From Rhodothermus marinus DSM 4252 (lineage in GTDB: Bacteria > Bacteroidota > Rhodothermia > Rhodothermales > Rhodothermaceae), in NCBI RefSeq assembly GCF_000024845.1, contig NC_013501.1:3142874-3206873 (forward strand): 64,000 bases of DNA, written 5' to 3'. A model generated the notes under the pieces. It ran no database searches and had not been told where the DNA came from. It saw only the letters and a list, made by a program, of their open reading frames with translations. Made by a program: the position numbers and the translations under genes. Each line of letters starts with the position of its first letter. The first letter of the stretch is position 1. Positions 31,266 to 53,220 of this stretch are shown piece after piece.

Positions 31266-32258
31266 TCATTCGGTCGGAGTGGTCAGGGGCTGTTCGGCGT
31301 CGGCCGAGGGGACCGGGGCCACCGGCACGGTGGGCCGCCGACGCTCCAGCCAGCTCGTCAGCACGAAGAGCACGGCGTTGGCCGTGCGATCCAGTACGCT
31401 CCGGACAACAAGCATGCCGGCCAGCACGGCCGCCGAAGCCTCCAGCAGGTGCGTCATGCCCAGCACGGCCCCCAGCGCCAGCAGGTCGGTGGCGGGCAGA
31501 AACGGAATCCGATTCGTGACGGTGCCCACCACCAGAATCGTGGCCCACACGCGCAGCGGAGCCTCGGGCAGCACCACCCACCACTGGAGCACCTGCAGCG
31601 CATACATGGCAAAAAACCGGAGCACGTGCACGCCCAGCAGCACCGCGGCCGTCCGCCCCGGCACGTAAAAAATGGCCCGGCGGAACCGCACGGCCAGCGC
31701 ACCCAGCACGCCGAAGGCCAGCCCCCCCGCCGCGATGTAGACCGGATCGGCCGCCTGGCCCAGCAGATCCACCAGCGCAAACTGACCGCTCAGCACGGCC
31801 CCGGCCACCAGCAGCACCACGGCTACCGTCGAGGCCACCGACGACAGGATCGTGTTGTCCTTGATCGTGCGCAGCAGGTGCCCATCCGGCCGGTCGGTGT
31901 GGCGGCGTGCCCACAGGTACAGGTACACCTCGCCCGAGTAGCCCAGCACGTCGGTGTTCAGTACGCGCTTGCGCACAAGCACCGGAAACACACGCCGCCA
32001 GCGAATCTTCCAGAGCGTCCGGTAGATGAACGCCTCGGTGGCCGGCAGCAGAAAGTACAGACCCAGCCAGAGCACGTAGAACCAGGGCGTGCGCGGCAGC
32101 CCTTCGTACACGTCCCGCCAGCCGATCTGCGTCAGCCGGTACAGCAACCACCCCACCACGCCAGTCACGAACAGCAGCCGCCCGTAGCGCTGCATTCGGC
32201 GCCCGGCGGGCGTCTGCAACCACGATCGCACCTGCTGCACCCTGGTTTTGAGCGACAT
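31266..32258 (-). CDS. Polytopic flippase-like membrane protein
   Basis: A 330-residue protein with about eight transmembrane segments and basic loops; a short cytoplasmic start (MSLKTRVQQVRSWLQT) is followed by GRLLFVTGVVGWLLYRL and the later phrase WVVLPEAPLRVWATILVVGT. It recalls lysylphosphatidylglycerol-synthase-TM/UPF0104 flippase-type proteins, though I could not confirm that. An upstream GTG at 32291 is an alternative start. It leads the operon with DUF3047 and MMPL genes, downstream of the Wzi-like gene by about 95 bp. Role in lipid translocation is inferred. Confidence 0.65.
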   Translation of the reverse strand: MSLKTRVQQVRSWLQTPAGRRMQRYGRLLFVTGVVGWLLYRLTQIGWRDVYEGLPRTPWFYVLWLGLYFLLPATEAFIYRTLWKIRWRRVFPVLVRKRVLNTDVLGYSGEVYLYLWARRHTDRPDGHLLRTIKDNTILSSVASTVAVVLLVAGAVLSGQFALVDLLGQAADPVYIAAGGLAFGVLGALAVRFRRAIFYVPGRTAAVLLGVHVLRFFAMYALQVLQWWVVLPEAPLRVWATILVVGTVTNRIPFLPATDLLALGAVLGMTHLLEASAAVLAGMLVVRSVLDRTANAVLFVLTSWLERRRPTVPVAPVPSADAEQPLTTPTE

Positions 32259-42189: not shown

Positions 42190-42219
42190 TTGCATCTTCA
42201 AATAGTTGTGCTACATTTT
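42190..42219 (+). promoter_or_regulatory. Predicted Bacteroidota-type promoter for the CHAT gene
   Basis: TTG at 42190-42192, 19 bp, then TACATTTT at 42212-42219, one mismatch from the TAnnTTTG box. The start codon at 42254 lies about 35 bp downstream, giving a short leader. Confidence 0.5.
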
Positions 42220-42253
42220 TCTACTACCTGAACGGCCCCACCCAGTACCTTTG

Positions 42254-44935
42254 ATGTGGCTTCTGGCCCTGTTCCTCTGGTTCAGTCTGCCGTCCTGGCC
42301 GCTTGCCGCGAATCCGTGCGATTCGCTACGCCAGGTCGTGGCACAGCTGCCACGCGATGCACGCGACGCGCCCGGTGAGCTTCGGCCACATGCCGTTCAG
42401 GCCCTACGGCGCTACCGCCAGTGCCCGGGGCTGACGCGGGAGCAGCTCATGCAACTCTATCGACAGGAAGCCAGCTACCTCCATGCGCTGCATCGCTATG
42501 CGGACGTGCTGGCGCTGGTGGATACCTTCCTGACCCGCTTTGCCCGCCAGCCCGATTCCATGATGTTCTACCAGATGTACCGCTGGCGAGGCTATGAATA
42601 CTACTTGCTGGGTGATCTTCCGGCCGCCGTCGTGGCCTACAATCAGGCGCTTCGTTATCTACCGGCCCGAGAAATTCGGGCGCGGGTCAGTCGATTGACC
42701 GACCTCGGGGCCATCTACTCCCGCATCCAGGATTACGAAACAGCCTATCAGCATTACCTGCAGGCCTATCATCTGTGGGAGCAAATTCCTTCCGACGACT
42801 CTTTGCGCCTCTGGGCGCGTCTGGACGTACTGCATGGCCTGGCCAGCCTACTGGTAGCACATCCTACGACGGGGCATCGCTCTCGCGAAGCAGGACTTGC
42901 AGAAGCCGACCGACTGATTGCCGAGGCCAGACGTCTGCTTCCCCGCGTGGACATCTCCCGGCGCCTACGCGCGCGCATCGAATTAGAACTGGGGCTTGCG
43001 GAAGCCGCACAGCGCTACCTGTCCGGCCGTCCGGAGCAGGCGCTTCAGATCCTGGACGAGCTACTTCGACGCTCCCGGCAACTTAACGAGCCGCACTGGC
43101 GCGTGGAGATTCTTTATCGTCGGGGAGTGGCCTTCTGGCATGCAGAACGCCTACAGGAAGCCGAGCAGTCCTTTTTAGAAGCACAGGCACATGCTGATGA
43201 AGCACTGCACGATGACACCCGTCGCCTGGTGCTGACCCGACTGGCTCAACTGTACGAGGATCAGGAGCGCCTGGACGAGGCCGAACGGTTTTTCCGGAAA
43301 GCCATTCCCTACACGGAGACGTATCTGACGCGCCTGCAGACCACACGCTGGGCGTCCCTGCCGACGGCCGACTGGTACGAAGCCTATCGCGGACTGGTCC
43401 GCATCCTGTTGCGTCAGGGCCGTCAGGCCGAAGCGCTGCAGTGGCTGGAGCGCAGCCGCGCGCGTAACCTGCAGGCCTTTCGTATCTATCACGCCAAGAC
43501 GCGACAGATGCCACTACACCAGCAGCAGCGCCGCGACAGTCTGGTCCACGCGCTCAACCGGCTCCGCACACGCCTGAGTGATCCGAACCTGCCCGCCAAC
43601 GAAGTCCTGAGCCTGAAAAGCCAGGAAGCAGCGCTTGAACTTCAGCTGCGCAATCTGCTGGCGCTGCCTTCGAAACCACCGGAAACACCTCTCGCCACCC
43701 TGCGGCAACGCCTGGCCCGACTCGGAGCTTCTGCGCTGGTCTACTTCATGGACTCGGTGAGCGGCCTTTTTCTGCTGACGACCGATACGCTCCGCTTTTT
43801 CCCCCTGGCACTCACGCCCGACAGCCTGGAGCATCTTTTGCGCCAGGTCAGTCCGATCTTCGATCCGGCGGGATCCGGTTCGATACGTGGCGCCCGCCAT
43901 TTCAACCTGCGCGCGCTGCACCGGCTCTTCGAACTGCTCGTCGCTCCGGCGCTCCCGTATCTGTTGCCCGACAGTCCGCTTTTTATTGTCCCCGACGGGC
44001 CCCTCTTCCGTCTACCGTTTGCCGCCCTGGTGCTCGACTTTCAACGCCCTTATGCTTACGACCGCGCCACCTATCTGACCGAGCGTCACCCGATCAGCAT
44101 CCTGCCGGCGCTGGGATTGCTGCTGGATAGCCTGCAGGCGCTCCCCTTCTCGCTGGACGTCAGCGGCCTGGGTCGCGCGCGCTTTACCGACGACCCGCGC
44201 CTGCGTGAGGTACTGCCCGTGGTCTTTCGCCGCCAGCCGCTGCCGGATCTCCCCGGCGTGCACGAAGAACTGGAGCGGATCACCCGACGCTTTGCCCACA
44301 CGCAGCGCTGGGAGGACTACCGGGCCACCGAGCCCCGCCTGCGCCAGGCGGCCGCCAGCAGCCGCGTGCTTCACCTGGCCTCGCACGTGCTGCTGCATCC
44401 GACCAGCTCAGCCTTCCACGCCATGGTGCTTTCTCCTTCACCCGGCGACGACGGCGTGCTCTTTCTGCATGAACTGCTCCGTCACCCGCTCGCTTCCGAT
44501 CTGGTGGTGCTCAGCGGCTGCAACACGGCCGCCGGCGAGGTCCTGCCCGGCGAAGGGCTCGAAGGACTGCAGTACGCCATCCTGGCGGCCGGTGCCCGCG
44601 GTGTGGTCGCCACGCGCTGGCTGGTGGAAGACCGCTCCATGGCCGACCTGATGGATCGGTTCTACGGGTACCTGGCGGCCGGGCTGCCGCTGGACCGGGC
44701 GCTCCAGCAGGCCCGGCTGGCCTTTTTGAAAGACGCTCCCTCCGAACTTCAGAGCCCCTTCTACTGGGCGGCGCCCGCCTTCTTTGGCGCGCCCCGCGTG
44801 CTCCCGCTGACGCCGCGGCCGTCATCGTTTCTGTCCCGGAGCTGGATCCTGCTGCTCCTGCTCGGGGTTGGCCTGGGCGTATGGCTTCACTACCGCAAAC
44901 GCCGTCGTGCCCATGGAGCGTCCCGCGCTGTTTGA
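42254..44935 (+). CDS. TPR-CHAT protein with signal peptide and C-terminal membrane anchor
   Basis: An 893-residue protein. A signal peptide (MWLLALFLWFSLPSWPLAA) leads into TPR-like helical repeats (about residues 60-400, for example YYLLGDLPAAVVAYNQAL). The C-terminal CHAT domain, a caspase-fold relative, has its His at 711 (LHLASHVLLHP) and Cys at 756 (VLSGCNTAAGE), so the catalytic dyad is intact. A last helix (WILLLLLGVGLGVWLHY) and a basic tail RKRRR suggest anchoring with the active domain outside the cytoplasm. The start at 42254 fits the signal peptide and promoter. The gene overlaps murQ by 23 bp. Protease activity is inferred; the target is unknown. Confidence 0.86.
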   Translation: MWLLALFLWFSLPSWPLAANPCDSLRQVVAQLPRDARDAPGELRPHAVQALRRYRQCPGLTREQLMQLYRQEASYLHALHRYADVLALVDTFLTRFARQPDSMMFYQMYRWRGYEYYLLGDLPAAVVAYNQALRYLPAREIRARVSRLTDLGAIYSRIQDYETAYQHYLQAYHLWEQIPSDDSLRLWARLDVLHGLASLLVAHPTTGHRSREAGLAEADRLIAEARRLLPRVDISRRLRARIELELGLAEAAQRYLSGRPEQALQILDELLRRSRQLNEPHWRVEILYRRGVAFWHAERLQEAEQSFLEAQAHADEALHDDTRRLVLTRLAQLYEDQERLDEAERFFRKAIPYTETYLTRLQTTRWASLPTADWYEAYRGLVRILLRQGRQAEALQWLERSRARNLQAFRIYHAKTRQMPLHQQQRRDSLVHALNRLRTRLSDPNLPANEVLSLKSQEAALELQLRNLLALPSKPPETPLATLRQRLARLGASALVYFMDSVSGLFLLTTDTLRFFPLALTPDSLEHLLRQVSPIFDPAGSGSIRGARHFNLRALHRLFELLVAPALPYLLPDSPLFIVPDGPLFRLPFAALVLDFQRPYAYDRATYLTERHPISILPALGLLLDSLQALPFSLDVSGLGRARFTDDPRLREVLPVVFRRQPLPDLPGVHEELERITRRFAHTQRWEDYRATEPRLRQAAASSRVLHLASHVLLHPTSSAFHAMVLSPSPGDDGVLFLHELLRHPLASDLVVLSGCNTAAGEVLPGEGLEGLQYAILAAGARGVVATRWLVEDRSMADLMDRFYGYLAAGLPLDRALQQARLAFLKDAPSELQSPFYWAAPAFFGAPRVLPLTPRPSSFLSRSWILLLLLGVGLGVWLHYRKRRRAHGASRAV

Positions 44936-45845
44936 CGAACTGAAAGCCCTGGCCACCGAGCAGCGAAACCCGCATTCCATGCACATCGACACGGCCCCGG
45001 TGCGGGAGATCCTGGAAATCATCAACACCGAAGACCACCTGGTGCCCATCGCCGTACGCCGTGAAATCCCCTATATCGAGCAGGCGGTGCATCTGATCGT
45101 GGAGGCCTTCAAGCAGGGCGGCCGCCTGTTCTACGTGGGGGCTGGCACCAGCGGCCGGCTGGGCATTCTGGATGCGGCCGAATGTCCACCCACGTTCGGC
45201 ACGCCGCCCGAGATGGTCCAGGGCCTGATCGCGGGCGGCCCGGAGGCCGTCTTCCGGGCGCAGGAAGGGGCCGAAGACCGGGAAGAAGACGGCGCGCGCG
45301 ACCTGAAGCGGGCCGGCGTCACGCCGCGCGATGTGGTCTGCGGACTGGCCGCCAGCCGTCGCACGCCGTACGTGGTGGGGGCCATTCGCTACGCCCGCCA
45401 GCTCGGCTGCCGCACGATCTTCATCACCTGCACGCCCCGCGAGGAATTTCCCCTGGAAGTGGACGTGGCGATCTGCCCGGTCGTCGGTCCCGAAGTGATC
45501 ATGGGCTCCACGCGCATGAAAAGCGGCACAGCCCAGAAGCTCGTGCTCAACATGCTCTCGACGGCCGCCATGATCCGGCTCGGCAAGGTCTACGAGAACA
45601 TGATGGTGGACCTGCAGATGACGAACCAGAAACTGCGCGAGCGGGCCAAGCGCACCGTCATGATCGTGACCGGGCTGGACTACGAGGCGGCCTCGCGCCT
45701 GCTCGAAGCGGCCGGTGGGCACGTCAAGACGGCCATCGTGATGGCGCTGGCCGGCGTTTCAGCCGAGGAGGCCCGGCGTCGGCTGGCCCGGGCCGACGGG
45801 TTCGTGCGCGCCGCCATCGCCAACGAAGGCCCACCGCCTGCCTGA
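44913..45845 (+). CDS. murQ: N-acetylmuramic acid 6-phosphate etherase
   Basis: A 310-residue SIS-domain enzyme that cleaves the lactyl ether of MurNAc-6-P during peptidoglycan recycling. Characteristic stretches: GRLFYVGAGTSGRLGILDAAE, PPTFGTPPEMVQGLIAGG and MGSTRMKSGTAQKLVLNML. The EDREEDG segment holds catalytic acidic residues. The ATG at 44913 (MERPALFDELKALATEQRN) gives normal length, and the gene overlaps the CHAT gene by 23 bp, so translation is coupled. A cluster of four parS sites begins right after its stop. Confidence 0.95.
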   Translation: MERPALFDELKALATEQRNPHSMHIDTAPVREILEIINTEDHLVPIAVRREIPYIEQAVHLIVEAFKQGGRLFYVGAGTSGRLGILDAAECPPTFGTPPEMVQGLIAGGPEAVFRAQEGAEDREEDGARDLKRAGVTPRDVVCGLAASRRTPYVVGAIRYARQLGCRTIFITCTPREEFPLEVDVAICPVVGPEVIMGSTRMKSGTAQKLVLNMLSTAAMIRLGKVYENMMVDLQMTNQKLRERAKRTVMIVTGLDYEAASRLLEAAGGHVKTAIVMALAGVSAEEARRRLARADGFVRAAIANEGPPPA

Positions 45846-45846
45846 A

Positions 45847-45862
45847 TGTTTCACGTGAAACG
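45847..45862. other. parS-like site A1
   Basis: TGTTTCACGTGAAACG: 15 of 16 bases of the bacterial parS consensus (TGTTTCACGTGAAACA). It begins 2 bp after the murQ stop. Confidence 0.88.
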
Positions 45863-45895
45863 TCTGGTCGGATCGGAGGCGCGGGGTTGCCGCAG

Positions 45896-45911
45896 TGTTT
45901 CACGTGAAACG
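45896..45911. other. parS-like site A2
   Basis: TGTTTCACGTGAAACG, one mismatch from the consensus, 49 bp from the first site (start to start). Confidence 0.88.
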
Positions 45912-45937
45912 CTGCGGAGAAGCCGAGTGCCCGACAA

Positions 45938-45953
45938 TGTTTCACGTGAAACA
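45938..45953. other. parS site A3 (perfect)
   Basis: TGTTTCACGTGAAACA, a perfect 16-bp palindrome, 42 bp from A2 (start to start). Confidence 0.93.
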
Positions 45954-45973
45954 GGAGCGTCGCCGGCGCCGAA

Positions 45974-45989
45974 CGTTTCACGTGAAACA
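45974..45989. other. parS-like site A4
   Basis: CGTTTCACGTGAAACA, one mismatch from the consensus, 36 bp from A3 (start to start). Confidence 0.88.
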
Positions 45990-46070
45990 CCCGGGGCGAA
46001 CCCGACGCCCGCTTGCTCGTTCTACCGCGCGCAACGTACGGGTACCTGAGCCGAGGTTCACCTGCCTTCC

Positions 46071-49000
46071 GTGAAACTGACCGATCTGCACCACCGCCTG
46101 GCATCGGCGGCCTTCTTCGAGCCGCTGCACGCGCACCTGGAATCCCTGACCCCTTCGACCCGCCTGCACCTGCGCGGGCTGGCGGGCTCGCTGCCCGCCT
46201 TCGTGCTCTACGAGCTGAGCCGACACCTCCGCCGTCCTGTCCTCTGTCTGACGCCCGACGAAGAACAGGCCGCCTATCTCTTCAGCGACCTGGAACAGCT
46301 GCTGGGCGTCTCGGATCGCCTGCTGCGCTTTCCGGCCACCGGCCAGAAGCCCTACGACCCGGAGCAGATCCCCGACTCCGCTCCGCTTATCGAACGCACC
46401 GACGTGCTGCGCCGCCTGGCCGAAGGCTTCGACGGACTGCTCCTCGCCAGTGCCGAGGCCATCGCCGAACGCGTTCCCCCACCCGACCGGGTCCGCCAGG
46501 AAACGCTCGTGCTCAGCCCGGGCATGGTGATCGATCCTGCCCAACTTCTGGCCCACCTCATCGCCCGCGGCTTCGAGCGCGTGGAGTTCGTCGAGGCCCC
46601 CGGCGAGGTGGCCCTCCGCGGCGGCATCCTCGACGTGTACCCCTTCACCGGCACGCACCCGATCCGCGTCGAATTCTTCGGGGACGAGATCGACACGATC
46701 CGGGAATTCGACCCGCGCACGCAACGCTCCATCAGCCGCCTGACCTCGGCCCAGATCGTCCCGAACCTGTCGGCGGCCGACTCCGAGGAGGCGGCCCACA
46801 CGCTCTTCGAGCACCTGCCCGATCATGCGCTGCTCGTCCTCTTCGAGGAGGGCGCCCTCTTCGACGCCGTGCAGGCCCGCTTTGCCGAGGCCGAACAGGC
46901 CTACGCCCGCCTGAACGCGCCCGACGAACAGCCCCGCCCGGAAGCCCGCTACCTGCCCCCGGCCGAACTGGCCGCCCACCTGAACCGCTACCCGGCCCTG
47001 CTCTTCGGTACGCTGGCCGAAGCCGAACGGACGCTGACCTGGGACACCCACCCGCAGCCCGCCTTCCACGGCAACCTGAACCTGCTGCGCGAGCGCCTGC
47101 ACGAAAACGCTCGGCGCGGCTGGGAAACCGTCATCCTGTGCGACAGCCGGAGCCAGGAGGCCCGCCTGCACGACCTGCTCCAGGAAGAAATCGAAGCGGG
47201 CGGTGTGCGCCTGCTCGTCGAATCGCTCCACGAAGGCTTCGAGGTGCCCGAAGCCCGTCTGGCCGTCTACACGGACCACCAGATCTTCGGCCGCTACCAC
47301 CGCCCCACCACCCGGCGTCGGCGCCACCTGCTGGGCGGCCTGTCGCTCCGCGCCCTGCAGAACCTCCAGCCCGGCGACTACGTGGTGCACGTCGATTTCG
47401 GCATCGGCCAGTTCGCCGGCCTGCAGCGCATCACCATACGGGGCAAGCAGCAGGAGGTCGTCCGCCTCCACTACGCCGACGGCGACGTGCTCTACGTGAG
47501 CGTCAACGCGCTCCACAAGCTGCACCGCTACACGGGTCGAGAGGGCCATCAGCCCCGCCTGACCAAGCTGGGCTCGGGCCAGTGGGAAAAGGTCAAGGCC
47601 CGCACGAAAAAACGCGTCAAGGACATCGCGCGCGACCTGATCCGACTCTACGCGAAACGCAAGGCCTCCCGCGGCTTCGCCTTCTCGCCCGACACGGTCT
47701 GGCAACGCGAAATGGAAGCGGCCTTCGAGTACGAGGATACGCCCGACCAGGCCGCCGCGGCCGAGGCCGTCAAGCGCGACATGGAGCAGCCCGTGCCCAT
47801 GGACCGGCTCGTGTGCGGCGACGTGGGCTTCGGCAAGACCGAGATCGCCATCCGCGCCGCCTTCAAAGCCGTACAGGACGGCAAGCAGGTGGCCGTGCTC
47901 GTGCCCACCACGATCCTGGCCGACCAGCACTACGAGACGTTCACGCGTCGGCTGGCCCCCTACCCGGTCCGCATCGAAGTGCTTTCGCGCTTCCGCTCGC
48001 CCGCCCGGCAACGGGCCGTCCTGCGCGATCTGGCCGCCGGCAAGGTGGACATCATCATCGGCACGCACCGCCTGCTCTCGAAAGACGTGCAGTTCAAAGA
48101 CCTGGGCCTGCTCATCATCGACGAAGAGCAGCGCTTCGGGGTGGCCGCCAAAGAGCGCCTGCGCCAGCTCCGCGTCGAGGTGGACACGCTCACGCTGACG
48201 GCCACGCCCATCCCCCGCACGCTCCAGTTTGCCCTGATGGGCGCCCGCGATCTGTCGATCATCTCCACGCCGCCGCCCAACCGCCAGCCCATCGTCACCG
48301 AGATCCATACGTTCGACGAAACGCTCATCCGCGACGCCATCCGCTACGAGATCAGCCGCGGCGGTCAGGTCTTCTTCATCCACAACCGCGTGCAGTCCAT
48401 CTACGAGATGGCCGCCCGCCTGCAGGCCATCGTACCGGACGTGCGCATCGCCGTGGCACACGGTCAGATGAAGCCCCGCGAGCTGGAGCGCGTCATGCAC
48501 GACTTCATGGCGCGCAAGTACGACGTGCTCGTCTCGACGAACATCATCGAAAGCGGCCTGGACATCCCCAACGCGAACACGATCATCATCAACCACGCCG
48601 AGCAGTTCGGACTGGCCGACCTGCACCAGCTCCGCGGCCGCGTCGGACGCTCCGACCGCAAGGCCTTCTGCTACCTGCTCGTGCCCTCCATTCACGGGCT
48701 CACACGCGAGGCGCGCCAGCGCCTGCAGGCCATCGAGGAATTCAGCGAGCTGGGGAGCGGCTTTTCCATCGCGATGCGCGACCTGGACATCCGCGGCGCG
48801 GGCAACCTGCTGGGCGCCGAGCAGAGCGGCTTCATCGAAGAGATCGGCTTTGAAACCTATCAGCAGATTCTCGACGAGGCGATCCGCGAGCTGCGCGAGG
48901 AGGAATTTGCGGACGTGCTGGGCGCCCCGCCTCCGAAGCCGCCCGAAACGAGCGTGGACGTCGAGGCCGATGCGTTCATCCCGGAAACCTACGTCAGCAG

Positions 49001-49409
49001 CAACGTGGAGCGGCTCAACCTGTACCGCCGCCTGAGCGAGGCGACCGACGAAGCGGCCATCGAAGCCTTCCGCGAGGAGCTGGCCGACCGGTTCGGGCCG
49101 GTTCCGCCCGAAGTGGACAACCTGCTCTGGGCCGCCCGCCTCAAACTGCTGGGCCAGGCGCTGCGCCTGCCGAAGGTGCTCTTCAAAAATCGGCGGCTCT
49201 TTCTGGAATTTCCGCTCCAGGACGAAGACCCGCACTTCTACGCGCACCATTTCATGCCGCTACTGGAACGGCTGAGCCAGCTCGACCGCCGCTACGTGCT
49301 GAAGGACCAGAACAGAAAGCTGCGGGCCATCGTGCAGGACGTGCCCGATCTGGAAACGGCCTATCAGGTGCTTCGCCAGCTTCAGCCCGCCGAAGTGCCG
49401 GTCTCCTGA
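46071..49409 (+). CDS. mfd: Transcription-repair coupling factor
   Basis: A 1112-residue Mfd that removes stalled RNA polymerase and recruits UvrA. The N-terminal UvrB-like module spans about 1-380, followed by the RNAP-interaction (CarD-like) domain [20 protein letters not shown]. The RecG-like translocase has [16 protein letters not shown] (Walker A), [25 protein letters not shown] and the TRG region with [17 protein letters not shown]. The C-terminal D7 ends near [13 protein letters not shown]. Initiation is a GTG ([10 protein letters not shown]). uvrA is also in this window. The 3' end overlaps the convergent WYL regulator by 28 bp. Confidence 0.96.
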
Positions 49410-50392
49410 GCGGCCTCCGGTTCGTAGCGGGCCAGGATGGCGCGCGCCTGCGCGCGGAGCTGCGCCCGGAGCGCCTCGGGCTCCAGCACCTCGACCTCCG
49501 TCCCGTAGCGCAACAGCCAGCGCGCCAGGTATTCCAGGTTTTCGAACGAAAAGGTCACCTCGATGCCTTCGGCCGTTTCCTGCTCCGACTCGATCCGGGC
49601 CGGAATGCTGCGCCGCGCCCAGCGATAGGTGGGTCGGGCAAAGCGCAGCCGGATGCGATACGCCTCGGTCGGAGCGCCCTGCGCCTCCAGGTAGGCGTTC
49701 AGGTCGAAGTCGCGCGGCGGTGTGAAGCGCTCGCGAAGCACGGTCAGCCGCTGAATCCGATCGAGCCGGAAGTTGCGGATGTCTTTGCGGAGATGGTCGT
49801 AGGCGATCAGGTTCCAGTGGTCCGTGTAGTAGACGAGCCCCAGCGGGTCCACCCTGCGCTGCGTCAGCTCGTCGCGGCTGGGCACGTAGTATTCGAGGTG
49901 CACGGACTGCTGGCGGGCGATGGCCTCGCTGAGTTCGTACCAGTAGCCGGCCTCTTCGTCCGATCCCTGCATGGTCTGCAGCCAGTAGGGATCGATCACG
50001 ATACGCTCCTGCAGGCGGTCGATGTATTCGCGAATGGACCGGGGTAGCACGGAGCGGATCTTGAGCGCGACCGCGTCGGCGTCGGCCCGGAGCGAGGCGT
50101 CCGGCTGGCGTTTCATGAATTCGGTGCCGATGAGCAGCGTGGCCGCCTCGCGGGCCGTGAACATAAGCGGCGGGAGCTGATAACCTTCGAGGATCTCGTA
50201 GCCGCCGCCCTCGGCGTAGGTCAGCGGCACGTTCGCCTCGCTGAGCGCCCGCAGATCCCGGAAGATGGTGCGGCGGCTCACACCGAAATGCTCGGCCAGT
50301 TGCCGGGCCGTAAGGCCGGGCCGCGTCTGCAGCAGCAGAATCAGCGCAAAAAGACGTTCGGTGCGATTCCGGGTGCGTTCGGCCAGTTTCAT
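49382..50392 (-). CDS. DeoR-type HTH, WYL-domain regulator
   Basis: A 336-residue transcription factor. The N-terminal winged HTH is FALILLLQTRPGLTARQLAE then FGVSRRTIFRDLRALSEANV; the middle has the WYL-type EGYQLPPLMFTAREAATLLI and the WYL module LVYYTDHWNLIAYDHLRKD near residue 200, then the WCX-like end LEYLARWLLRYGTEVEVLEP. WYL domains sense nucleic-acid or small ligands and often control DNA-damage or defence loci. The ATG at 50392 was chosen as the conserved sequence begins KLAERTRNRTERLF. It is convergent with mfd. Target unknown. Confidence 0.88.
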   Translation of the reverse strand: MKLAERTRNRTERLFALILLLQTRPGLTARQLAEHFGVSRRTIFRDLRALSEANVPLTYAEGGGYEILEGYQLPPLMFTAREAATLLIGTEFMKRQPDASLRADADAVALKIRSVLPRSIREYIDRLQERIVIDPYWLQTMQGSDEEAGYWYELSEAIARQQSVHLEYYVPSRDELTQRRVDPLGLVYYTDHWNLIAYDHLRKDIRNFRLDRIQRLTVLRERFTPPRDFDLNAYLEAQGAPTEAYRIRLRFARPTYRWARRSIPARIESEQETAEGIEVTFSFENLEYLARWLLRYGTEVEVLEPEALRAQLRAQARAILARYEPEAAQETGTSAG

Positions 50393-50431
50393 GCGATCGG
50401 CGGGCAACGCGCTTTTTCGGGCGTTTCGCCG

Positions 50432-51118
50432 TTACCGAACCGAGGCGTCCGCTTCCGGTTCCGGCGCGACGTGGACCAGGTATTTCTCCGCGAAGAGCGG
50501 ATCGCCCAGCAGCCGGTCCAGCGGCCAGAGCCTGACGTGCAGGTGCGGATCCAGCCGCTCGAGCGCGGCCAGTTCGTCGGTCAGATCGCCGCCTTTGAGG
50601 GCCAGCAGGCCGGGCGGCCAGGCGTCCGGCGACGCCGCAAGCGGTCGGGCCACGCGGCGGTGCCATTGCCAGAGCGTGGCGAGCGGGGCCGTGGCCCGCG
50701 AGACGCTGTAGTGCGCCGCGCCCTCCCAGCGCTCGGCGCGCGCGTGGTGGACCTGCAGGTTCGCCAGTCCCAGCCGTCGGGCCATCGTGCGCACGGCCAG
50801 CACCTTCTTCTGCGCGGCATCGACGGCGTGCACGGTGACCTCGGGAAAGGCGATGGCGAGCGGCACGGCCGGCAAGCCCCCGCCCGTGCCCCAGTCCACC
50901 ACGACGCTGCCCGGCGGAAACGGGCGCCACGTCAACGCCAGACAGTGCAGCAGATGGCGGCGGTGCAGCTCGGGGAGTGTTTCACGTGAAACAAGATTGT
51001 GATGCCGCCCCAGCTCCTGCAACAGCCGGGCATAATGCTCCAGTTGCTCCCGCTGCGCCGGATCGAGCTGCTCCCAGGGATCCCAGCTCACAGACGGTGT
51101 TTCACGTGAAACACGCAT
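50432..51118 (-). CDS. rsmG: 16S rRNA (guanine527-N7)-methyltransferase RsmG
   Basis: A 228-residue RsmG (GidB) that methylates G527 of 16S rRNA. Motifs: LPELHRRHLLHCLAL, VVDWGTGGGLPAVPLAIAFP (SAM binding), VHAVDAAQKKVLAV and RAERWEGAAHYSVSRATAP. Its 5' part contains two perfect parS sites which it translates as VSRET: codons 3-7 (MRVSRETP) and again in HNLVSRETLPEL. A start at 51151 would add the parS-derived MFHVKH and 0-bp spacing from mnmG, so I prefer 51118. It follows mnmG directly, the usual order, but parA and parB do not follow. Confidence 0.92.
   Translation of the reverse strand: MRVSRETPSVSWDPWEQLDPAQREQLEHYARLLQELGRHHNLVSRETLPELHRRHLLHCLALTWRPFPPGSVVVDWGTGGGLPAVPLAIAFPEVTVHAVDAAQKKVLAVRTMARRLGLANLQVHHARAERWEGAAHYSVSRATAPLATLWQWHRRVARPLAASPDAWPPGLLALKGGDLTDELAALERLDPHLHVRLWPLDRLLGDPLFAEKYLVHVAPEPEADASVR
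50978..50993. other. parS site B1 (perfect), within rsmG
   Basis: TGTTTCACGTGAAACA. It lies inside rsmG codons and is translated there as part of LVSRETL. Confidence 0.93.
51098..51113. other. parS site B2 (perfect), within rsmG
   Basis: TGTTTCACGTGAAACA immediately after the chosen rsmG start, translated as RVSRETP; 120 bp from B1 (start to start). Confidence 0.93.
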
Positions 51119-51134
51119 GGAGCCCCGCGCCGGA

Positions 51135-51150
51135 TGTTTCACGTGAAACA
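51135..51150. other. parS site B3 (perfect), between mnmG and rsmG
   Basis: TGTTTCACGTGAAACA in the 33-bp gap between the mnmG stop and the preferred rsmG start; 37 bp from B2. Confidence 0.93.
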
Positions 51151-51151
51151 T

Positions 51152-53053
51152 TCAGGCGGCCTGCGGACGCCGGTAGCGACGAAGCAGCACCATCAGCACC
51201 GAGATGTCGGCCGGACGCACCCCGCTGATGCGCGAGGCCTGCCCCAGATTCTCCGGCCGGATTTTGCTGAGCTTTTCGCGGGCCTCCTTCGAGATGGTCT
51301 CGACCGCCTCGTAGTCGAAGTCCGGCGGAATGCGCCAGTCCTCCAGCTCCCGCATCTTCTCGACCAGCTCCCGCTCCCGGTCCATGTAGCCCTCGTACTT
51401 CAGCTCGATCTCCACGAGCATTTCGACGGGCTCCATGCCCGGCGCCGGCACCACCACCTGCTCGCGCAGCCCGGTGGCCTCGAGCAAATCCCGCAGGTTG
51501 ACCTGCGGCCTGAGCGCCAGCCGCACCAGCCGCTCGGGCCGATCGATCGGCGAGGTGCCCACCCGCTCCAGGTAGCCGTTCACCTGCTCCGGCCGCACGG
51601 TCGTCTCCTCCAGCGCCCGGCGCGTGCGCGCGATCGCCTCCTTCTTTTTCAGCATGCGCTCGTAGCGCTCGCGCGTGGCCAGTCCCAGCCGATAGCCCAG
51701 CTCGGTCAGCCGGAGGTCGGCGTTGTCCTGGCGCAGGAGAATCCGGTGCTCGGCCCGCGAGGTGAACATCCGGTAGGGCTCGTCCGTCCCCTTCGCCACC
51801 AGATCGTCAATCAGTACGCCGATGTAGGCCTCGGAACGCCGCAGCACGACCGGCTCGGCGCCCCGGAGCTTCTGCACGGCGTTGATCCCGGCCATGAGAC
51901 CCTGTGCGGCCGCCTCCTCGTAGCCCGTCGTGCCGTTGATCTGTCCCGCAAAGAACAGCCCCTCGACGTACTTCGTCTCCAGGCTGTAACGAATCTGATA
52001 GGGCGGAAAGTAATCGTACTCGATGGCATAGCCCGGCCGCAACACGTGCACGCGCTCCAGACCGGGAATCTTCCGGAGCGCGGCCACCTGCACCTCCTCG
52101 GGAAGACTCGTCGAAAAGCCGTTCACGTAAACCTCGTAGGTGTCCCAGCCCTCGGGCTCCAGAAAGATGGGATGGCGGTCCCGCTCCGCGAAGCGCTCGA
52201 TCTTGTCTTCGATGGACGGACAGTAGCGCGGTCCCCGGCCTTTGATCCGGCCCGTGAACATGGGACTGCGGTCGAAGCCGGTGCGCAGAATGGCATGCAC
52301 CTCGGGCGTCGTGTAGGTGAGCCAGCAGCTGAGCTGGCGATCCGGGAGCCGGTCCGTCATGTAGGAAAACGGGAGCGGCTCCGAATCGCCCGGCTGTTCC
52401 TGCAACCGGCTGTAGTCGATCGTGCGGCCGTCGATGCGGGGCGGCGTGCCCGTCTTGAGCCGCCCGCTCTCGAAGCCCAGCCGTTCCAGACAGGCCGTCA
52501 GTCCGGTGGCCGCCCGCTCACCCATACGGCCGCCGCCGAGCTGGCGCTCGCCCACGTGAATGACGCCGTTCAGAAACGTGCCGTTCGTCAGAATCACACA
52601 CGGCGCATAGAAGGTCTTGCCGAGCTGCGTGCGCACCCCCTTCACGCGACGGTCTTCGACGAGCACCTCGGTGACCGTGTCGGCCCGCATCCACAGGTTC
52701 GGGATCGACTCCAGCTCGTGCCGCACGGCCTCCGCATAGCGCTTGCGGTCGCACTGGGCGCGCGGCCCCCAGACGGCCGGCCCCTTGCTCCGGTTGAGCA
52801 TCCGGAACTGAATGCCGGTCTGATCGGCCATCCGCCCCATGATCCCGCCCAGCGCATCGATCTCCCGCACCAGGTGCCCCTTGCCGATTCCCCCGATGGC
52901 CGGGTTGCACGACATGCGGCCGATCGTCTCCAGGCTCATCGTGATCAGCAGCGTGCGGGCTCCCATCCGCGCCGCAGCCGCGGCCGCCTCGGCCCCGGCA
53001 TGGCCGCCCCCCACCACGATCACATCGTACCGCTCGTCCGAAAAAATCTCCAT
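51152..53053 (-). CDS. mnmG: tRNA U34 carboxymethylaminomethyl-modifying enzyme MnmG (GidA)
   Basis: A 633-residue FAD enzyme that, with MnmE, modifies wobble U34 in tRNAs. FAD motif [21 protein letters not shown]; conserved [40 protein letters not shown]; and [15 protein letters not shown]-terminal helical domain ending [20 protein letters not shown]. The ATG at 53053 ([11 protein letters not shown]) gives the standard length; an in-frame ATG at 53086 exists. Its partner mnmE is 5 kb away in the same window. Divergent from the histidine kinase genes. Confidence 0.96.
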
Positions 53054-53220
53054 CGCACTTTTTTCCAGTTCGTTACCGGAGACCATGCTTAAAACACCGG
53101 AGCCGGCAACGGTTTCGCCTGACCGAACGGGACCGTTCACACTTTCTTTACAGTTGAAAGTTTGGAGAAACACGGGAATGTTTTTTGTTTGAACAACAGG
53201 GTGAACCACCCTTTCCGCGC

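Follow-up and report, generated by a model that had tools for sequence, protein, structure and literature searches.

In Pseudomonas, four parS sites are located near oriC (PMC4368675), and Myxococcus carries 22 parS sites, most of them within a 3-kb cluster. In Thermus thermophilus, parS is located within gidB, and parAB lies immediately downstream (PMC4409726). The par operons are said to lie in the origin domain, which is 20% wide (±10%) (PMC7022226). Our literature search returned no paper on the placement of parS in Rhodothermus or on the separation of parAB from parS in Bacteroidota; the survey of parS published by Livny et al. in 2007 lay outside this search, and earlier reports are possible.

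Here, we analyzed a 64,000-nucleotide stretch of DNA from Rhodothermus marinus DSM 4252 (hereafter, the window), which corresponds to positions 3,142,874–3,206,873 of a contig of 3,261,604 bp; the genome comprises two contigs and totals 3,386,737 bp. An earlier note based on the letters of this DNA had read the gap between murQ and mfd as a dedicated centromere-like array. The present results support this reading and widen it, with the gap holding one half of a two-part cluster and the coding sequence of rsmG holding the other. We consider it very probable (about 0.95) that the array is half of a chromosomal centromere composed of seven parS sites in two clusters, which would load ParB produced from an unlinked parAB operon.

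Identification of parS sites in the gap between murQ and mfd

The 16-bp palindrome TGTTTCACGTGAAACA was taken as the parS reference. Four copies with start positions of 45847, 45896, 45938, and 45974 and start-to-start spacings of 49, 42, and 36 bp were found in the gap between murQ and mfd, which covers 45846–46070, from the murQ stop codon (45843–45845) to the mfd start (46071). This arrangement is as described in the earlier note, and its count of one perfect copy and three copies with a single mismatch was confirmed, each mismatch being at an outermost base. The features of this region are as follows.

44868..45845, + strand: murQ, SIS-domain sugar-phosphate etherase, flanking the gap array on the left
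45847..45862, no strand: parS-1, TGTTTCACGTGAAACG, 1 mismatch, one base past the murQ stop codon
45896..45911, no strand: parS-2, TGTTTCACGTGAAACG, 1 mismatch
45938..45953, no strand: parS-3, perfect, extra copy present only in this genome and its closest relative (G003)
45974..45989, no strand: parS-4, CGTTTCACGTGAAACA, 1 mismatch
46071..49409, + strand: mfd, transcription-repair coupling factor, flanking the gap array on the right

The palindromic 14-bp core GTTTCACGTGAAAC is unbroken in all four copies. On the other side of murQ, the 3′ end of a gene for a TPR-CHAT protein (window positions 42206–44935) overlaps the called murQ start, and this pair of neighbors is retained across the order, despite divergence of the TPR-CHAT protein to ~33% identity.

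Identification of parS sites in rsmG

Three further perfect parS sites, starting at 50978, 51098, and 51135, were found 5 kb from the gap array at the 5′ end of rsmG. The four-site array described in the earlier note is real but constitutes only half of the cluster; these three copies in the same window had been overlooked. The features of this region are as follows.

49382..50407, − strand: WYL/WCX transcriptional regulator, between mfd and rsmG
50432..51151, − strand: rsmG (gidB), its 5′ end holding parS-5 to parS-7
50978..50993, no strand: parS-5, perfect, within rsmG, encodes VSRET in the motif NLVSRETL
51098..51113, no strand: parS-6, perfect, in the N-terminal leader of rsmG, encodes VSRET
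51135..51150, no strand: parS-7, perfect, at the rsmG start, encodes MFHVKH in a reading frame unlike that of parS-5 and parS-6
51152..53209, − strand: mnmG (gidA), the gene beside which parS recurs across the phylum

The WYL/WCX regulator is located beside rsmG across most of the class, even without the mfd–murQ neighborhood.

Because the third frame of parS contains a stop codon (TGA), the site can be encoded in two frames only. With the GidB domain beginning at residue 33, the N-terminal leader contains two of the sites and the domain contains the other; parS-7 begins at base 2 of the rsmG start codon. The RsmG of a Rhodothermus MAG is 93% identical to that encoded here. The frequencies of the codons GTT, TCA, CGT, and GAA were 0.06, 0.03, 0.09, and 0.41, respectively, in a small sample of five neighboring genes, and the joint frequency of this spelling of VSRE in the same genes was ~8e-5 for that peptide. 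Because this joint frequency is so low, selection at VSRE appears to act on the DNA word rather than on the peptide. The spacing of the rsmG sites (120/37 bp) recurs unchanged at L026, L028, and L029, which belong to another family of this class, and MnmG is only ~60% identical between that family and this genome.

The palindromes might instead serve as operators through which a local transcription factor, such as the WYL regulator, or some other global regulator controls mfd, rsmG, and mnmG. Several genes are flanked by the sites, and in many relatives the two clusters have a WYL regulator between them. However, the sequence is the one established for ParB binding, three of the copies are within a coding sequence, the sites persist in genomes in which the WYL gene was undetected (G028 and G036), no promoter-like site was found in the murQ–mfd gap, and the ParB of this genome has residues of the parS type, as described below. 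We rejected this reading, which we regard as highly improbable.

Distribution of parS sites in the genome and their position relative to the origin

A whole-genome scan, which the earlier note had proposed as a check on the centromere reading, revealed clustering near the origin. In the whole genome (3.39 Mb), seven parS sites were found at 0–1 mismatch, none at 2 mismatches, and five, which were scattered, at 3 mismatches. All seven good sites, four perfect and three with one mismatch, are located within one 5.3-kb stretch near dnaA and are not spread evenly around the genome. The window contained seven matches at ≤3 mismatches against an expected 0.09, and no dinucleotide-preserving shuffle reached seven. 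The seven sites are 68–73 kb from dnaA, which starts at base 189 and has six DnaA boxes within ~240 bp of its start. The GC skew, sampled in 20-kb stretches, changed from negative on the left to positive on the right and reached a local minimum at ~32 kb, ~100–105 kb from parS. An opposed pair of DnaA boxes was also observed at C1:32329–32368 (L090), less than 0.4 kb from the local skew minimum at 32,002 and 32 kb from dnaA.

In three relatives (G017, G060, and G030), dnaA and parS are 270–480 kb apart. The skew of the relatives was read from samples ~175–240 kb apart and one 18–19-kb stretch at parS. The sampled skew flip was located between 940 and 1047 kb in G017 (parS, 930 kb; dnaA, 1301 kb) and between 207 and 340 kb in G060 (parS, 349 kb; dnaA, 3618 kb of 3747 kb), being nearer parS in each genome, and the flip between 982 and ~1184 kb in G030 (parS, 1188 kb; dnaA, 924 kb) fits either parS or a site nearer dnaA. 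In parts of the class, dnaA may not mark the origin, for which the skew of G017 and G060 is suggestive only. No convincing cluster of DnaA boxes was found at parS in the relatives. Two full-length DnaA genes per genome, both over the family cut-off, were observed in G024, G034, and G112, which belong to a Salinibacter-like genus (g7), and also in G067; the second DnaA of G065 and G077 is without the N-terminal part.

ParB, ParA, and SMC

The chromosome encodes both ParA and ParB, the latter being the homologue whose absence the earlier note had named as evidence against its reading. The only ParB-family match in the genome, at 495 kb on the contig, has N-terminal, HTH, and C-terminal dimerization domains, and the gene order is ParA, ParB directly downstream, and a DUF5683 protein. 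One full-length SMC was found at 728 kb (1080 bits). The residues that determine specificity were identified by aligning this ParB with Noc and other entries of the ParB family and are numbered according to PMC7383237. Positions 173, 179, 184, and 201 are R, F, K, and G, respectively, in this ParB and Q, K, K, and R, respectively, in the aligned Noc entries. R173 and G201 are described as absolutely conserved in ParB, and position 184 as varying among ParBs (PMC7383237); this ParB has K at position 184, as does Noc. Because the equivalents of R173 and G201 are present, this ParB is predicted to read parS.

These residues also bear on the possibility that the sites are of the Noc type, serving nucleoid occlusion, and are not parS. 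Noc, a paralogue of ParB, has a 16-bp palindrome that resembles parS, and the top phmmer matches of the ParB of this genome were Noc structures; however, the sites agree with parS and not with the Noc site at both separating positions, the sole ParB-family protein found has R/G at 173/201 and not Q/R (PMC7383237), and the sites are grouped by the origin and not dispersed. With neither a Noc-type site nor the Noc set Q-K-K-R found, this reading was rejected, and we regard it as extremely improbable.

Conservation of parS sites in the genus, class, and phylum

The gap array, read as part of the centromere, is kept in six Rhodothermus genomes, with four copies in this genome and G003 and three copies in the others. 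The core columns of the gap were identical in 644 of 644 pairwise comparisons among these genomes, and identity in the remainder of the gap was 52%; a column counted as core if any one sequence had the core there, and the informative part is that every sequence aligned there keeps the core. The spacing of the gap sites differs by several bases between Rhodothermus species, which would be expected were the sites important and the spacers not. Elsewhere in the order, parS was also found between murQ and mfd (G008, G024, G028, G030, G036, G112, G118, and G120), and parS adjoins mfd in G130.

These data are relevant to whether the gap copies, taken as parS, are redundant and add little, with the rsmG sites, or any one site, being sufficient. 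A single origin-proximal parS suffices in Pseudomonas (PMC4368675), and the number of gap copies varies from three to four within the genus. Against this, every gap core is invariant in the six genomes despite diverged spacers, and murQ–mfd sites recur across the order. We regard redundancy of the gap array as rather unlikely, giving it roughly one chance in four.

At ≤1 mismatch, parS was found in 131 of the 146 genomes of the class, reversed-pattern controls being nearly all zero, and ParB was found in all 146. Nearly all parS loci fetched from the class (51/53) are within 1.5 kb of mnmG, rsmG, murQ, or mfd, and 26 of the 30 loci fetched from the rest of the phylum adjoin mnmG. Sites at mnmG–rsmG recur across the class, and those next to mnmG recur phylum-wide. 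Three class members with a strong ParB (G063, G043, and G102; L116, L130, and L131) had no parS-like site at ≤3 mismatches near rsmG, and their centromere may have moved or changed in sequence.

Separation of parAB from parS

As the earlier note had stated, parA and parB are located outside the window. The parB gene maps to ~495 kb of the contig, which puts ~565 kb (17% of the chromosome) between it and parS; its distance from dnaA is 495 kb, or ~15% of the 3.26-Mb chromosome, and parAB falls outside the ±10% origin domain according to the rule in PMC7022226. The distance between parAB and parS was 327–1361 kb in all 13 single-contig genomes compared across the phylum, six in the class (G000, with its chromosome in a single contig, G003, G008, G030, G017, and G060) and seven outside it (G189, G168, G217, G193, G185, G225, and G202), the distances for the latter being differences of listed coordinates. 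This long separation of the centromere from the partition genes, present in every one of these genomes, is the less usual feature of the system. None of the 27 parB loci had parS at ≤2 mismatches within 1.5 kb of parB; ParA and ParB were adjacent at all 27, and DUF5683 was detected at most of them. Thermus shows the linked state, with parS in gidB and parAB right after it, and from this comparison we infer that parAB may have left and parS stayed at mnmG–rsmG.

Discussion

The parS sites were directly observed to be conserved and, at ≤2 mismatches, exclusive to this stretch of the genome; the genes for ParA, ParB, and SMC and the residues of the parS type in ParB were likewise observed. Judged by these findings, the locus is in kind an ordinary chromosomal parS cluster of a ParABS/SMC system, presumably occupied by ParB. 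By analogy with described systems, each parS would catalyze a CTP-dependent reaction in which a ParB dimer closes to form a clamp, and the closed clamp would slide onto the adjoining DNA. The two clusters would jointly build one partition complex over the murQ–mnmG region near the origin, which ParA would pull and at which SMC would be loaded. In the phylum, parS would be held at mnmG–rsmG, and parAB would be located elsewhere as a ParA–ParB–DUF5683 block.

A broader proposal, which we put forward tentatively and to which we give somewhat less than an even chance, is that this uncoupling is Bacteroidota-wide. According to this proposal, parS would lie at mnmG(–rsmG), joined in Rhodothermales by another cluster at murQ–mfd, and would mark the true origin even where dnaA is hundreds of kb away, and parAB would lie in the conserved ParA–ParB–DUF5683 block outside the origin domain. 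The probable centromere of one Rhodothermus genome is now defined to the base, with three sites written into the codons of a gene. Whether parS must sit near parAB, dnaA, or the origin finds a natural test in this phylum, in which the three separate.

The parS clusters of Bacillus, Caulobacter, Pseudomonas (parS1–4), and Myxococcus consist of the same 16-bp site as that in Rhodothermus and resemble the present locus in having several copies in a short origin-proximal stretch and in the accompanying ParA, ParB, and SMC genes. The Myxococcus cluster is ~4 kb from parA, whereas parAB in Rhodothermus is ~565 kb, or ~17% of the chromosome, away. Thermus thermophilus resembles Rhodothermus in having parS inside the rsmG/gidB coding sequence near the origin (PMC4409726). 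However, Thermus has one site beside parA, whereas Rhodothermus has three sites in rsmG and four in the murQ–mfd gap, with parAB elsewhere.
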